From: Ruminococcus sp.
GTDB taxonomy: Bacteria > Bacillota > Clostridia > Oscillospirales > Ruminococcaceae
Assembly (NCBI GenBank): GCA_017472145.1
Contig: JAFUQX010000021.1
Location: 30,289-94,288, forward strand
Direction: 5' to 3'
DNA length: 64,000 nucleotides
Shown here piece by piece: positions 5,982 through 64,000 of this stretch. The notes below the pieces were generated by a model that saw only the letters and a list, made by a program, of their open reading frames with translations, was not told the DNA's origin and searched no databases. Position numbers and translations under genes: made by a program. How positions within the stretch are numbered: the first letter of the stretch is position 1; every line of letters begins with the position of its first letter.

Positions 5982-8900
5982 TTAAACCTCGGTTACAGGG
6001 AGAGCCGATACCAGCTCTACGACATACTTCATCAGAGCGGTTACATCGTTTACATCGAGTGTGCCGTCTGTGCAGCATTCAGCAGCCTTCTGCTGGTCTG
6101 CATTCAGATTGATGATACCTACAACAGCCTTGTTCAGCAGGATGATATCCTTGATGGAAACCTTACCATCCATGTTTACATCGCCTACAGTTACTTCAAC
6201 CGGAGTCTTGGTTGTAGATTCAGTTGTAGAAGTTGTAGCCGGAGCCTGAGTGGAGGTAGCCGGAGCATTTGTTGTAGTTGTAGCAGTGGTTGTCTTAGCG
6301 GTGGTTGTAACGGTAGCAGAGGTCGTGGTCTTGGTTGTAGTGGTGGTAGTCTGGGTGGTAGAAGTAGTGGTTGCAGAGGACTGGGAAACGTCCGAACCTG
6401 CACCGTCGGTATAGATCGCAACAGAATCAATTGTGAAGGTATCGCAATCGATCCACCAGATACCGAACTTTACTTCGCCGCCGTACTGAGTCTGAATGAT
6501 TTCAGAGGTAGCTGCGTCTACTTCCCATACAATTGTACCGGTCTTGCTGTCGAAGGTCTGCTCCATCTGATCGGTCTGAGTCCAGTAATCCGGATCAACA
6601 GTGGTGGAAGAGCCGAATGCACCCTGCCATTTACCGATCTTGGAAGCGATGGAGGAGATGGTGATTTCTACACGTGTTACCTTCTCGTCTGCGCCGATGC
6701 CGAAGTCTTCATAAGCAAATCCGATCATACGGCCGTCCTCAGGCAGCTCAGAATAGCTGTACAGATCACCGATTTCCTTGGTGTAAACACCGCCCTCGGT
6801 CTCAGAGCCGCCCTTTGTTGTTGTGGCTGAGGTGGTGGATTCAACAGGCTTTGCAGTGGTTGTTGTGGTCGTTGTGGTCGTCTCTGTTTCGTCCGGCTTG
6901 GCTGTTGTAACTGTGCCGCCTTCGCCGTCGGTGTAGATTGTAACAGAATCAATAATGAAGGTGTCACAGTCGATCCACCAGATACCGAACTTCACCTCGC
7001 CGCCGTACTGAGTCTGAATGATCTCAGAGGTTGCAGCGTCTACTTCCCATACAATTGTACCGGTCTTGCTGTCGAAGGTCTGCTCCATCTGATCGGTCTG
7101 AGTCCAGTAATCCGGATCAACAGTAGTAGAAGAACCAAATGCGCCCTGCCATTTACCGATGGAGGATGCAATTGAGGAAATGTTCACCTCTACACGAGTT
7201 ACCTTCTCATCTGCACCAATGCCGAAGGATTCATAGGTCCAGCCGATCATGCGGCCGTCCTCGGGCAGCTCAGAATAGCTGTACATTTCGCCAAGCTCCT
7301 GTGTATAGGACTTGCCGGCCGACGGCTGCTCGCCGCTGTCGGTAGTTGCGGTAGTAGTAGCCTCTGTAGTTTGGGAAACGGTCGTCTCTGTCGTTGCAGT
7401 AGTGGTGGCCTTTGTGGTCGCTGTAGTCGTTTCAACCGGTGTTGTTCCGGTGGAAACAGAAGCTTCGCCCAGAGCGGTGATCAGTGTGTATGCACATTCG
7501 CCGCTGGTCACCTTCAGGCAGATAGAAGCGATGCTGGAAACATCCTCACCCCATGCTCTGGCAATATCATCCGAGTCATAGTAAGCGATGCCGTTTTCTT
7601 CATCAACATCATATGAACCGACCTCTGTCCAGTTCCCCCAGGAGCTGTTCATGAAGGCCAGAACCGGAGTTGTACCTGTGTACTTGACAGCGATTTCACC
7701 CTTTGCTACCTGCTCCGGTGTAATGGAAACACCAGTGGAGGAGCCTGTAATGGAATTAGAGCCTTCCCAGATCACATCACCTGTGCTCAGGTCTGCGTGC
7801 TCATAAGAGGGCTTGTGTTCCTCGGAATCCCATACAACAGAGCTGTCGTTCATAACAGATACCATTGCGTCTACAACAGCACCGCCGTTCTCGTACCATT
7901 CGTAGGTATCTCTGTTGATGTAGGTGTGACATTCGCTTTTGTCGCTGTTGCCGACTGCATCGTTATCCCACAGAACGCAGGGGATACCCAGCTTCTTTGT
8001 CCAGGTGAGGTAATACTTGGCCCAGTCTATTCTTGCTTCGGTATTGTCATAGTCGGAAGTACCGAATTCGCCGATAACGACCGGGATATCCTTGTCCGTA
8101 AGTGTAGACTGGATATTTTTGAAGATGGTATCCAGAGATGCTTCATAGGTTTCTGAGAATGTTGTATGATCGCCGTCGCCCATTGCGAATTCATACGGAG
8201 AATACGCATGAACAGAAGCGGCTACATACGCATCGTTTTCCGGGAAATCGATCTGGCTGATAACGTGAAGCTCGTGTGATGCACAATAGCCCGGGATCAT
8301 CAGGAGACGAGTATCCTGGTAAGGAGAGTCTACCGAGCGGACAGTATTGACGAAATCACTGCACAGCTTGTTAACAACATCGTAGCCCTCCTGAGGAACA
8401 CCCCAGCCCCATTCATAGTCCGTATCAACTGCACGCGGCTCGTTCATACCCTCGAAAATCAGGTGCTGGTCGTAGTCCTTGAAGTAGGTTGCGATCTGCT
8501 CCCAGATCTGTGTCAGCTTCGCAGACATCTCATCGTATGCGGTTGTGAAATCAGAGCGGTTGATCCAGTTCTCGTGATGTACGTTGAGAATAACATACAT
8601 ATCCTGATTGTATGCATAATCTACAACTTCCTTTACACGAGCCAGCCAGGCCGGATCAATGGTGTAGGTACCGTTTTCCTCTGTTACATGGGGATACCAT
8701 GTTGTGGGGACACGGATGGTGTTGAAGCCCTTGGCCTTAACTGCATCGATCAGCTCCTGTGTTACCACCGGATTGCCCCAAGCGGTTTCGTGCTTTGTGA
8801 CATCGGATGTGGACGGGGTCGCGTCCAGTGAGTTGCCGATGTTCCAGCCCAGTCCCATCTCCTCTGTGATCTGATCCGCTGTCATCTCAGCAGCAGATAC

Positions 8901-57536: not shown

Positions 57537-58880
57537 ATGATGAGTACACAAAAAACTGGATTTTCCAGCAGACTGGGCTTCATCCTGGCCGCAGCCGGCT
57601 CCGCAGTCGGTCTGGGAAACATCTGGAGATTCCCTTATCTTGCCGCTCAGTACGGCGGTGGTATTTTCCTGCTGGTATATCTTGTACTGGTCGTAACTTT
57701 TGGCTTTTCTCTGATGATAACGGAAATTGCGATCGGACGAAAGACCGGAAAGAGTGCGATCGAGGCCTTTGGGGCGCTGAACAGAAAGGGTTCCTGGATC
57801 GGCTACCTGATTTCCGCCGTTCCCATGATCATTCTGCCGTATTACTGTGTGATCGGCGGCTGGGTGATCAAGTACGGTGTGACCTTTGCAGCAGGACAGG
57901 GCGCAGCCGCTGCAGCGGATGGTTATTTTAATGAGTTTATCGGTTCTACCGGCTCTCCGCTGATTTTTGCAGCGATTTATATCATTCTGACAGCGGCTGT
58001 CGTATTGATGGGCGTTCAGAAGGGTATCGAGAAGATCAGCAAGATCCTCATGCCGGTGCTCCTGGTTCTGACCGTGGGCATTTCTATCTACAGTCTGACA
58101 TTAGACGGTGCGATGGAAGGTGTGAAGTATTATCTCATTCCCAATTTCAGCAATTTCTCTCTGAAGACGGTTGTTGCAGCTATGGGTCAGATGTTCTACT
58201 CCATGTCCCTGGCGATGGGCATTATGATCACCTATGGTTCATACATGCCGAAAAAGGAAAGCCTGGAAAGCTCTGTCCGTCATATTGAGATTTTTGACAC
58301 GTCTGTTGCCTTCCTGGCTGGTCTGATGATCATTCCGGCTGTATTTTCCTTCTCCGGCGGTGATCCGTCTGCATTGAACCAGGGCCCGGGCCTGATGTTC
58401 GTAACGCTCCCGAAGGTATTCGACTCCATGCCGGGCGGACATATTGTGGGCGTGGTATTCTTTATTCTGGTGCTCTTTGCGGCGCTGACCTCTTCTATTT
58501 CTCTGATGGAAACGGTTGTATCCATTTTCCAGGATAAGCTGAAGATCAACCGCCGGCTGCTTTGTATTCTTGTTATGATCGGTACAATGATCATAGCCAT
58601 TCCGTCCTCTCTGGGCTATGGCGTATGGTCTGAGGTGCTCATTTTCGGCAAGCAAATTCTGGACTTCTTCGACTTCCTGAGCAACAACATTATGATGCCC
58701 ATTACAGCGCTTCTGACTTGTATCTTTGTGGCCTATGTCATCAAGACAAAGGCCGTTGAGGATGAGGTTGAGCTGAACGGGCCGTTTAAGTCCAAGAAGC
58801 TGTATCAGATCATGATCTCCTATATCTGTCCGGTATTTCTGGTGGCGATCCTGATTTCTTCTCTGATCGGATATGTATAA
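57537..58880 (+). CDS. Neurotransmitter:sodium symporter (NSS/SNF) family transporter
   Basis: A 447-residue membrane protein of the LeuT fold, importing an amino acid or related amine with Na+. The TM1 signature SRLGFILAAAGSAVGLGNIWRFPYL-type motif holds the unwound helix residues of the substrate and Na+ sites; TM6 contains SLAMGIMITYGSY. About 11-12 helices are expected, as in MhsT/TnaT-type bacterial members. Two adjacent ATGs (57537, 57540) follow AAGGAG; either may serve. Its terminator region was disturbed by the repeat element at 58916-59346. Confidence 0.92.
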   Translation: MMSTQKTGFSSRLGFILAAAGSAVGLGNIWRFPYLAAQYGGGIFLLVYLVLVVTFGFSLMITEIAIGRKTGKSAIEAFGALNRKGSWIGYLISAVPMIILPYYCVIGGWVIKYGVTFAAGQGAAAAADGYFNEFIGSTGSPLIFAAIYIILTAAVVLMGVQKGIEKISKILMPVLLVLTVGISIYSLTLDGAMEGVKYYLIPNFSNFSLKTVVAAMGQMFYSMSLAMGIMITYGSYMPKKESLESSVRHIEIFDTSVAFLAGLMIIPAVFSFSGGDPSALNQGPGLMFVTLPKVFDSMPGGHIVGVVFFILVLFAALTSSISLMETVVSIFQDKLKINRRLLCILVMIGTMIIAIPSSLGYGVWSEVLIFGKQILDFFDFLSNNIMMPITALLTCIFVAYVIKTKAVEDEVELNGPFKSKKLYQIMISYICPVFLVAILISSLIGYV

Positions 58881-58915
58881 TTCTGTGCAGCTGTAATGAA
58901 GCAGAATTGAAATTT

Positions 58916-59346
58916 AAGGCTTCCCCGATATTTTTGGGGAAGTCTCAGGCTGTAGAAAAAACTCTGAAAACATCTTTACTAGCAGGGATAATAGCGTTGA
59001 AAACGTCCCACCGGGACGTTTTCAAGAGAACCTTACTTCGGATCGCAACAAGGGGAAAGCGGTCTTGTTCGCTTTCCCCTCGAAATGCTGTCGCATTTCT
59101 CACCCCATTTCTCCGTGCGCCGGAAGTACGGCGCAGGGAGTTTCGCTCTCTGCGGAGAGCGACTAGGGACGCTGTCCCTGGACCCTGGCAGCATTTTCGA
59201 GAAATTGCTGCACCAACGGTGCCGTCCCCTTTGTCCCTTCGGGACATTTCCCCACCCCGTGGGGAATCACCAAAAAGCTTTTATACCTGCTTAAGTTGAT
59301 GAGAAGGTTTTTCGACGAGCTGAAGGCTTCCCCGATATTTTTGGGG
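58916..59346. repeat. Non-coding multi-hairpin element framed by a 24-bp direct repeat
   Basis: An identical 24-bp segment, the terminator arm AAGGCTTCCCC plus GATATTTTTGGGG, stands at 58916-58939 and 59323-59346. Between them, 58997-59266 folds into at least nine successive short perfect or near-perfect hairpins: 58997-59025 (13 bp), 59051-59080 (11 bp), 59082-59099, 59116-59135, 59143-59162, 59165-59179, 59188-59211, 59232-59246 and 59248-59266. Frames on both strands are artefacts of the palindromes; none has a ribosome binding site. This fills most of the 58881-59440 intergenic gap. It is most likely an inserted repeat element. Confidence 0.72.
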
Positions 59347-59359
59347 GGAAGCCTTTTTA
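59323..59359 (+). terminator. Intact terminator copy downstream of the hairpin element
   Basis: AAGGCTTCCCC (59323-59333) pairs with GGGGAAGCCTT (59345-59355), followed by TTTAT. The upstream copy (58916-58945) keeps the stem but has lost the T tract. Confidence 0.85.
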
Positions 59360-59373
59360 TTTGTTTGGCGGCG

Positions 59374-59402
59374 TTGACTTTTCCGGGGCCTGGTGCTATA
59401 AT
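59374..59402 (+). promoter_or_regulatory. Promoter of the DUF2262 gene
   Basis: TTGACT at 59374-59379, a 17-nt spacer and TATAAT at 59397-59402. Confidence 0.88.
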
Positions 59403-59440
59403 AAAACGGAACAGCAAACTATTTTTTGATGGAGGATGTT

Positions 59441-60301
59441 ATGGAAAGAGAGATCAATGCATTTGAAGCGAGATTTGATCCTTCGATAAAGGAGGTTCTG
59501 GTGCTGACCAGAGACAACACCGGCGCAGGACGCTTTGGACAGAACCAGATGTGGAGCGCCAGCCTTTCCATTCTGGCCATGGTGGATACAGAAAGCGATG
59601 CGCTGATTGCCGGAAGAAGAAGTCTTACATGGCTGATGACGGACATGCAGCGGCGTACGGATGAGAAAATATTCGGTCTGAAGGCAGAGAAAATATATCG
59701 CCTGAAGGTACGGGAATCCCTTCCCCTTATCATTGAGGAGACGGGCCGGACCATAGAGCGTGGTGCAAGTCTTCTGGTTTGCGAGGTGGTTGAAAGGGAC
59801 TGTGCAGATGAGAGACTGGAGGGGATTCTCCAGAAGTATCAGCAGCCTGTGACCCTGCATCCGGAGGGCTGCGGAACGCTTCTGCTCCACAAGCATCTGG
59901 GTGTATTCAGCGGAGATGGCGAATGGAACGGCTGTGTATGCACGGTTTATCTGGATGTGGATACTGAGGAGGCTGAAACGGCAGATCATGCTCTGGCTGT
60001 ATGGAATCGCCTTTGTGCCGATGCTGCTGAATGGGACGAAAAAGCCCGGCGCTATGCAGCAGGCCTGCTGACAGAGGATGCAAAGGACTGGCTCATGGAT
60101 AATGAGGAAGCAGACGAGGATGAGATCGAGGAATTCACAGAAGAAGAATTCGCTGAGAGAATAACACCGGGTGAAATATGCATTTCCAATCATGGTGATT
60201 TTGAGATTTATTATGATGATGACGATATGTTCTGGGGACATGTGATCATCGTGCACGGAACCCTTGACGGCGATTTTACAGGTGCAGAGATCGCCGGATA
60301 A
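59441..60301 (+). CDS. DUF2262 domain-containing protein
   Basis: A 286-residue cytoplasmic protein. The C-terminal part (about 225-286, with SNHGDFEIYYDDDDMFWGHVI and a GTLDGDFTGAEIAG end) matches DUF2262. The N-terminal two thirds form a related accessory domain (DUF7021-like). Function unknown; relatives often have similar very acidic loops (EEADEDEIEEFTEEEF here). GGAGG stands 6 nt before ATG 59441. Probably monocistronic, since a new promoter lies before the next gene. Confidence 0.8.
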   Translation: MEREINAFEARFDPSIKEVLVLTRDNTGAGRFGQNQMWSASLSILAMVDTESDALIAGRRSLTWLMTDMQRRTDEKIFGLKAEKIYRLKVRESLPLIIEETGRTIERGASLLVCEVVERDCADERLEGILQKYQQPVTLHPEGCGTLLLHKHLGVFSGDGEWNGCVCTVYLDVDTEEAETADHALAVWNRLCADAAEWDEKARRYAAGLLTEDAKDWLMDNEEADEDEIEEFTEEEFAERITPGEICISNHGDFEIYYDDDDMFWGHVIIVHGTLDGDFTGAEIAG

Positions 60302-63837: not shown

Positions 63838-63868
63838 CAGGGCTGCTGCAATACTGCAACAGCCCTTA
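63838..63868. terminator. Terminator hairpin after the SDR gene, GGCTGCTGCA type
   Basis: AGGGCTGCTGCA pairs with TGCAACAGCCCT (one mismatch) around a short loop. It is the third member of the hairpin family also seen at 14460 and 33886. Confidence 0.8.
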
Positions 63869-64000
63869 GCTTGTCGAAAAAGTCAGATTTTCCGCACAAG
63901 GCTCCCCTTAGCAAGGGGAGCTGTCGGCACGAAGTGACGACTGAGGGGATTGAAAAAGTACGCAAAACCGTAAGTTTTCTCATGCCTTACAATCCCCTCC
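63869..64000. repeat. Intergenic hairpin-rich repeat, truncated by the window end
   Basis: After GCTTGTCGAAAAA (63869-63881) come a 9-bp hairpin (GCTCCCCTT/AAGGGGAGC, 63901-63921), a second hairpin (63923-63941, GTCGGCAC/GTGACGAC with one mismatch) and a 10-bp long-range pairing of GAGGGGATTG (63943-63952) with CAATCCCCTC (63990-63999). No coding potential. I recall similar intergenic sequences from gut Clostridia, but cannot verify this here. Its far end is beyond the window. Confidence 0.6.

Follow-up and report, generated by a model that had tools for sequence, protein, structure and literature searches.

What kind of sequence has entered the terminator of a gene is the question raised by one locus of a Ruminococcus sp. 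contig. In the analysed stretch of 64,000 nucleotides (contig C62, 30289-94288), termed here the window, a block of closely packed hairpins follows a gene of the sodium:neurotransmitter symporter family (SNF; 57537-58880, + strand; Pfam PF00209, 210.2 bits) and has invaded its terminator. A preliminary description, made from the letters alone, offered two readings, a non-autonomous element that had duplicated its target and a multi-stem structured RNA made by read-through from the symporter gene. Sequence comparison indicates that the block is very probably a non-autonomous element (miniature inverted-repeat transposable element, MITE) mobilised by a DDE transposase of the IS1182 family, which would recognise a stem-loop and not a sequence. 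The first of the two readings is supported by copies with conserved ends, by duplicated hairpins, by syntenic sites without the element and by IS1182 insertion sequences with the same ends.

Boundaries, copies and target hairpins

The whole element is 379 bp long (58945-59323, + strand), is apparently non-coding and has IS1182-type terminal inverted repeats (TIRs) at both ends. Its limits were set from the TIR pair, the flanks and further copies in the genome. The pair is imperfect, with TCAGGCTGTAGAAAAA starting at 58945 and its partner ending at 59323. The left TIR, TCAGGCTGTAGAAAAAACT (58945-58963, + strand), is within 2 mismatches of TCAGNYTGTCGAAAAA, and the right TIR (59305-59323) reads TCAGCTCGTCGAAAAACCT on the - strand.

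On each side of the element lies a copy of the target terminator hairpin. The upstream copy, or left target-site duplication (58916-58944, + strand), is a direct repeat that abuts the TIR and has no T tract. The downstream copy, or right target-site duplication (59324-59360, + strand), is seen both as an inverted and as a direct repeat. It is a complete hairpin and has behind it the only T tract, as expected from the description of an intact terminator at this place. The identical 24-bp repeats reported at the borders are exact (58916-58939 = 59323-59346, spacing 407). Since the upstream copy, which ends in ...GGGGAAGTC, is a nearly whole hairpin, two G short and with one base different from the downstream copy, the true duplication extends beyond 24 bp.

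Reading frames of 69-130 amino acids are open across the block. These are treated as chance because the block evolves as hairpins, a judgement that takes the hairpin evolution of the block and not homology as its basis. From its size (379 bp) and the length of its open reading frames (ORFs; longest 130 amino acids) the element has no transposase of its own, as already stated in the preliminary description. CRISPR is also ruled out, in agreement with that description, with no identical repeats with regular spacers in 58700-59600.

The genome is a 2.5-Mb draft in 76 contigs, 94.3% complete. Searching it by blastn for second copies with conserved ends, a check proposed beforehand, gave 91 matches to the block, several of them at contig ends. 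The TIR pattern, allowing at most 2 mismatches, occurs at 82 + 91 = 173 places, against 17 + 15 = 32 for the reversed control pattern. From the fetched loci we obtained 33 distinct TIR-bounded elements of 71-490 bp with both flanks readable. They are a sample of the TIR places, from which loci with fewer than 45 bases of flank and repeated views of one element were excluded. Both TIRs are within 2 mismatches in 31 of the 33.

A hairpin (score of at least 8) abuts the left end in 19/33 elements, the right end in 19/33 and at least one end in 25/33, compared with 70 of 3000 single random positions of the window. In 17 of the 33 elements the flank pair scores above all 1056 swapped pairings. For these 17 it is the target hairpin that has been duplicated, over 18-37 bp and with a sequence that varies between elements. 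The duplication abuts the right TIR in all 17 cases and the left TIR exactly in 14; in the remaining three, 1, 2 and 5 nt lie between the two. The 5-nt gap belongs to the window's own element, whose hairpin copies differ by an indel. At least 4 T are found among the next 8 nt in 15/17 elements, and the window element is an exception only since the aligned stretch ends inside the stem. Six of the 33 elements adjoin the interior sequence of a different element, in one case at hairpin 1 of the hairpin array; array hairpins can therefore serve as targets.

Sites without the element were found in relatives. One locus of the own genome (L036) has two elements. At its second site the TIR is present in none of the six genus genomes read, and a single hairpin stands there in three (G003, G007 and G010). 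For the first site, G003 is the sole genome with both flanks and has a single hairpin. Near the compared sites (second site), G003 (L161, L177) has what appears to be another intergenic repeat, with GGTTCTATT-like ends and GTAGGGGCG-type hairpins. In the 527-600 bases after the gene, all 10 symporter orthologues of the genus have neither an element match nor a TIR. A conserved 3'-untranslated-region (3'-UTR) element of the symporter is thereby ruled out, with 0/10 orthologues having a match after the gene.

Transposase family and proposed insertion path

PF13751, a transposase domain of the IS1182 type, occurs in 18 of the 148 genomes examined from this GTDB family. The TIR stands at one or both ends in 8 of 30 fetched PF13751 loci, and at both ends in 5. 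Three of these five two-ended insertion sequences (L092, L094, L096; 1512-1585 bp) are surrounded by perfect duplications of a whole terminator-like hairpin, of 37, 29 and 27 bp. Their transposases score 389.3-396.8 bits against the NCBIfam IS1182 model NF033551 (cut-off 270). The element thus shares its TIRs (TCAGNYTGTCGAAAAA-like) with IS1182 insertion sequences of its own GTDB family, and its assignment to the IS1182 family is firm.

A different mobilising enzyme, an IS30-type transposase like that of IS1630, is highly improbable. IS1630 of Mycoplasma fermentans was reported to duplicate inverted repeats, according to a title cited in PMC3317919, and the available part of that source gives duplications of 16, 23, 25 and 26 bp in four copies. 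One contig end (L047, 1-140) resembles by eye the end of an IS30-family transposase. This IS30-like end, however, is located within one of the short elements, as if inserted there. The TIRs match the ends of IS1182-family insertion sequences, and IS1630 belongs to another transposase family. An HTH_38 gene as the cognate enzyme was rejected too: of 3 matches in the own genome one is above cut-off (L060), and this is a 92-aa ORF that is sigma-factor-like by reading.

Several observations weigh against the interpretation as a hairpin-duplicating IS1182-type element. No significant duplication was found in 16/33 elements, which we infer to be old or recombined copies. In some of them the left and right hairpins are not alike (L025, L059), in several a hairpin stands on just one side, and a few elements, among the shortest or among those with a TIR beyond 2 mismatches, may be chance TIR pairs. 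In L008 (1429-1850) the duplicated hairpins have loops inverted to each other (TGTAAAAA versus TTTTTACG), while the copies elsewhere are direct. Unlike hairpins also stand on the two sides of the insertion sequences L093 and L095, the latter only 758 bp long. At the syntenic L036 sites the hairpins differ in sequence from those of the own genome, no clear hairpin is seen in G004, and other sequence is found in G009 and G011. The proposed check for sites without the element showed its absence after all ten symporter orthologues, but these have other terminators, so there is no strict empty site for the window element. Outside the own genome, an array of the same kind lies between IS1182-like ends with a duplicated hairpin in another genus (L211), and this is the only array outside genus g1 seen with both features. 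Finally, the own draft genome (at the completeness given above) has no PF13751 gene, and among 16 genus genomes only G012 is above the PF13751 cut-off, with no TIR pair of insertion-sequence length in its 2093-base locus. The working enzyme in the host is missing from the assembly or lost; a transposase copy may be unassembled, because several contigs end inside these repeats.

Among the closest known systems is IS1272/TnSha1, an IS1182-family element of staphylococci. In the available parts of PMC5678879 and PMC4923244, its new insertions are at stem-loops without a common sequence, several of them confirmed terminators. The same parts report the stem-loop as deleted or replaced, with no duplication, and some older copies at targets that are not stem-loops. 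The present element is like IS1272/TnSha1 in transposase family and in stem-loop targets. It is unlike IS1272 in that the whole stem-loop is duplicated and a non-autonomous hairpin array is carried. When compared with replacement of the IS1272 type, a stem-loop target is seen in 25/33 elements, whereas removal of the stem-loop without duplication is not. An alternative path was drawn for IS1272 (PMC5678879, Fig 13, path b, in the part available), in which both stem-loops are joined at their 5' feet and the stem-loop would be duplicated as a whole, the outcome seen in the present elements.

Following such a path, the element would join at both feet of the terminator hairpin, probably during hairpin extrusion, with a cruciform as the presumed intermediate. 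Gap repair would then leave one full hairpin per side, with the T tract beyond the second. Because the T tract is kept there, a transcript from the invaded gene is expected to pass the array and end at the second, complete terminator, and this read-through would make the insertion nearly harmless.

The element is best filed as an IS1182-type MITE with a hairpin-duplicating insertion mode, a variant of a known family and new in that sense. These are natural cases of whole-stem-loop duplication by IS1182-family elements, for which the available part of PMC5678879 drew the path for IS1272 as an alternative only. Structure-guided target choice thereby becomes directly testable, and a route is suggested by which elements may enter 3' ends without loss of termination.

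The hairpin array: palindromes of RNA or DNA

The nine consecutive hairpins of the preliminary description are real and span 58997-59266. The + strand of 58900-59360 folds at -213.8 kcal/mol, far beyond 100 dinucleotide shuffles (-142.0, standard deviation 5.9; z -12.2, 0/100 as low). The - strand of the same segment folds at -201.4 kcal/mol (z -9.9).

On the + strand, hairpin 1 (58997-59025) has a 13-bp perfect stem with a 3-nt loop and hairpin 2 (59051-59080) an 11-bp stem; both were recognised as inverted repeats and are helices 1 and 2 of the alignments described below. Hairpin 3 (59082-59099; helix 3) was found by folding and has a 7-bp stem and a TGTC loop. Hairpin 4 (59111-59140; helix 4), an inverted repeat with a 12-bp stem and one mismatch, shows the lowest pairing, with 87.7% of cells in the 90-copy alignment. 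The best conserved is hairpin 5 (59143-59162; helix 6), with an 8-bp stem and a TGCG loop, found by folding and paired in 99.3% of cells of that alignment. Hairpin 6 (59163-59181; found by folding) and hairpin 7 (59188-59211; an inverted repeat) are helices 7 and 8 of the same alignment. Hairpins 8 (59232-59246) and 9 (59248-59266) form a separable module (59215-59272), as read from the copies and from matches confined to it.

Hairpins 1-7 keep a constant order across copies from four genomes, and whole modules differ between copies. The 59215-59272 module is absent from its place in L008, L018 and L026, while a related module stands at another position in L003, L008 and L018. This module is also matched alone, with the remainder of the array absent, in G007 and G008 and at several sites of G001. 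The array, the cargo of the element, consists of near-perfect palindromes and also occurs without the ends of the present element. As hairpins are the preferred target, hairpin-rich elements would themselves be targets, and nested insertion together with module exchange could produce the mosaic copies.

Small intergenic repeats of other bacteria offer partial parallels. BOX elements are modular in make-up, and REP/BIME are intergenic palindromic repeats of high copy number. The present array differs from REP/BIME in having at least 7 unlike hairpins in fixed order, with IS1182-type TIRs in some hosts. The pneumococcal BOX, RUP and SPRITE are described in the available part of PMC10969869 as small non-autonomous elements that are clustered and insert into one another, SPRITE being terminator-like. 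They are likened here by description and not by sequence; their host is another one, and the present elements insert at the hairpin foot and duplicate the hairpin.

The array is widely distributed. A covariance model detected it in 71 of the 297 family genomes, spread over 32 of 126 genera, and in a class-wide sample in 10 of 391 genomes, 9 of which belong to the same order (the own genome included) and 1 to another family of the class. The copy numbers per genome from these searches are floors, since only a small number of candidates was scored, and are reported as at most 7 in the family (8 in the own genome) and at most 5 class-wide. In 9 of 68 arrays, 4 of these 9 being in the own genome, direct repeats in the flanks exceed the 99th percentile (a score of 25) of 4556 swapped pairs. 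At least in L243 and L245, which are among the nine, the flanks look like two unrelated, merely similar terminators.

Two alignments were used to follow the stems. The first had 12 copies taken from 4 genomes and excluded those with inserted modules (L003, L007, L008, L009, L018, L019, L030), those cut by contig ends and identical ones. In it, 97.0% of 777 cells are paired and both-sided changes are seen in 20/65 pairs. Four of five covariation measures are above all 500 shuffles, and the fifth (further pair types) is reached by 131/500. The second alignment had 90 copies, the matches at E <= 1e-18 among 109 at E <= 1e-6, from 85 chosen sources and including L003, L007, L008, L018 and L030. 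Here 96.4% of cells are paired, both-sided changes occur in 63/65 pairs, and no shuffle (0/500) is as high on any of the five measures. Double-changed cells number 1051, against 245.7 when shuffled and at most 200 when slid, with 91 one-sided changed cells and 169 unpaired cells.

The covariance check proposed beforehand has therefore found covariation. It had been said in advance that a mobile or structured element would be disfavoured if no second copy existed, if all orthologous loci carried the block and if the stems did not covary. Each of the three failed to hold.

Covariation of this strength, in both alignments, and the presence of the array in 71/297 family genomes are what would be expected of a structured RNA under selection (a 3'-UTR element or a small RNA), the transposon ends being incidental. 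The strand bias of the changes bears on this possibility. In the 90-copy alignment G-U cells outnumber A-C cells by 135 to 78, so the full count leans to G-U, as an RNA would. Without the two most wobbly positions, which were picked post hoc, the counts are 85 and 69 (p 0.23). By comparison, 91 tRNAs from the fetched loci, mostly of the same family, have 67 G-U and 1 A-C cells (Fisher 2e-10 against the array, with cells that are not independent events). The lean of the array is far under that of this control. Its balance is understated, if anything, because the alignment was fitted to a covariance model that favours G-U. Moreover, the array has no match in Rfam 15; the window has only a tRNA there, and tRNAs alone pass the gathering score in six loci with arrays. 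The gene on the 3' side of the array is mostly antisense to it, being on the opposite strand in 49 cases and on the same strand in 21. Selection as an RNA is on these grounds unlikely. Of the structured-RNA reading in the preliminary description, strong stem covariation across species is retained, while the changes are far less strand-biased than those of tRNAs. This suggests palindromes that are maintained at the DNA level or used on both strands.

Use on both strands could mean that the arrays are two-way transcription barriers or 3'-end protectors between genes, with both strands under selection. The weak strand bias of the pairing fits this, and so does the placement. Among 78 arrays examined, 13 had no gene called on one side; of the other 65, 23 lie between convergent, 36 between co-directional and 6 between divergent genes, all genes being simple longest-ORF calls. 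The opposite-strand genes on the array 3' side (49/70, against 21/70 on the same strand; p 0.001) are at a median distance of 91 bp. On the 5' side, 39 genes are on the same strand and 34 on the opposite one. The same placement is, however, expected from an insertion preference for gene ends, and the simplicity of the gene calls also counts against a role as barriers, which we regard as doubtful.

A third possibility needs no function of the array. Template switching, or quasipalindrome correction, is a process able to keep stems perfect. It would account for the rarity of half-way states, with 91 one-sided and 169 unpaired cells beside 1051 double-changed ones, and for G-U and A-C counts far nearer balance than in tRNAs. 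By itself it leaves unexplained the constant order of hairpins 1-7, the conserved TGTC and TGCG loops and the similar 3' end across genera. We consider such a mutational origin of the perfect stems a serious possibility, if somewhat short of an even one.

More tentatively, and with some doubt, the order-wide array may live as DNA palindromes that are landing pads for hairpin-seeking transposases, growing by nesting and module exchange and dispersed to gene ends. The stems would then be perfect since an extruded DNA hairpin or two-way transcription counts, and not a one-strand RNA. A family- and order-wide hairpin repeat with heavy covariation and little strand bias calls for caution in RNA-discovery screens that equate covariation with RNA function.

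Neighbouring features and minor observations

The symporter gene is the 5' neighbour of the block, and a DUF7021/DUF2262 gene is the next gene on its 3' side. A second, sibling element lies at the end of the window. Its target, a hairpin after a short-chain dehydrogenase gene (63840-63865, + strand), also follows the other element half on contig C1 (L031). The left part of this element (63866-64000, + strand), of the approximately 200-bp type, begins with a TIR at 63866, has an interior as in other short elements and runs off the window. Because C1 starts with the other element half followed by the same hairpin, the contig of the window (C62) and C1 are probably neighbours in the genome.

An exact 28-base piece of the block matched only two contigs of a metagenome-assembled genome of Ruminococcus sp. 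from roe deer rectum, in a search that possibly did not include records of the own or near genomes. A literature search, including array strings, found no paper on the array; subscription papers were mostly outside its coverage, and absence from print is not implied. The plasmid collection gave no match. The sole match in the phage collection is a 48-base piece of the separable module with 91.7% identity, at 8311-8358 of MT836755.1, an unannotated 8.9-kb record from human faeces.

Around the array of L261 there is a 60-bp imperfect direct repeat (-99..-39 and +10..+70), which may be a lengthy target-site duplication or part of a coding sequence present twice. In several loci (L235, L237, L253, L259, L262, L265, L269) two arrays are arranged head to head, the 3' ends pointing outward, and the paired matches of L235 and of L237 overlap in hairpin 1.
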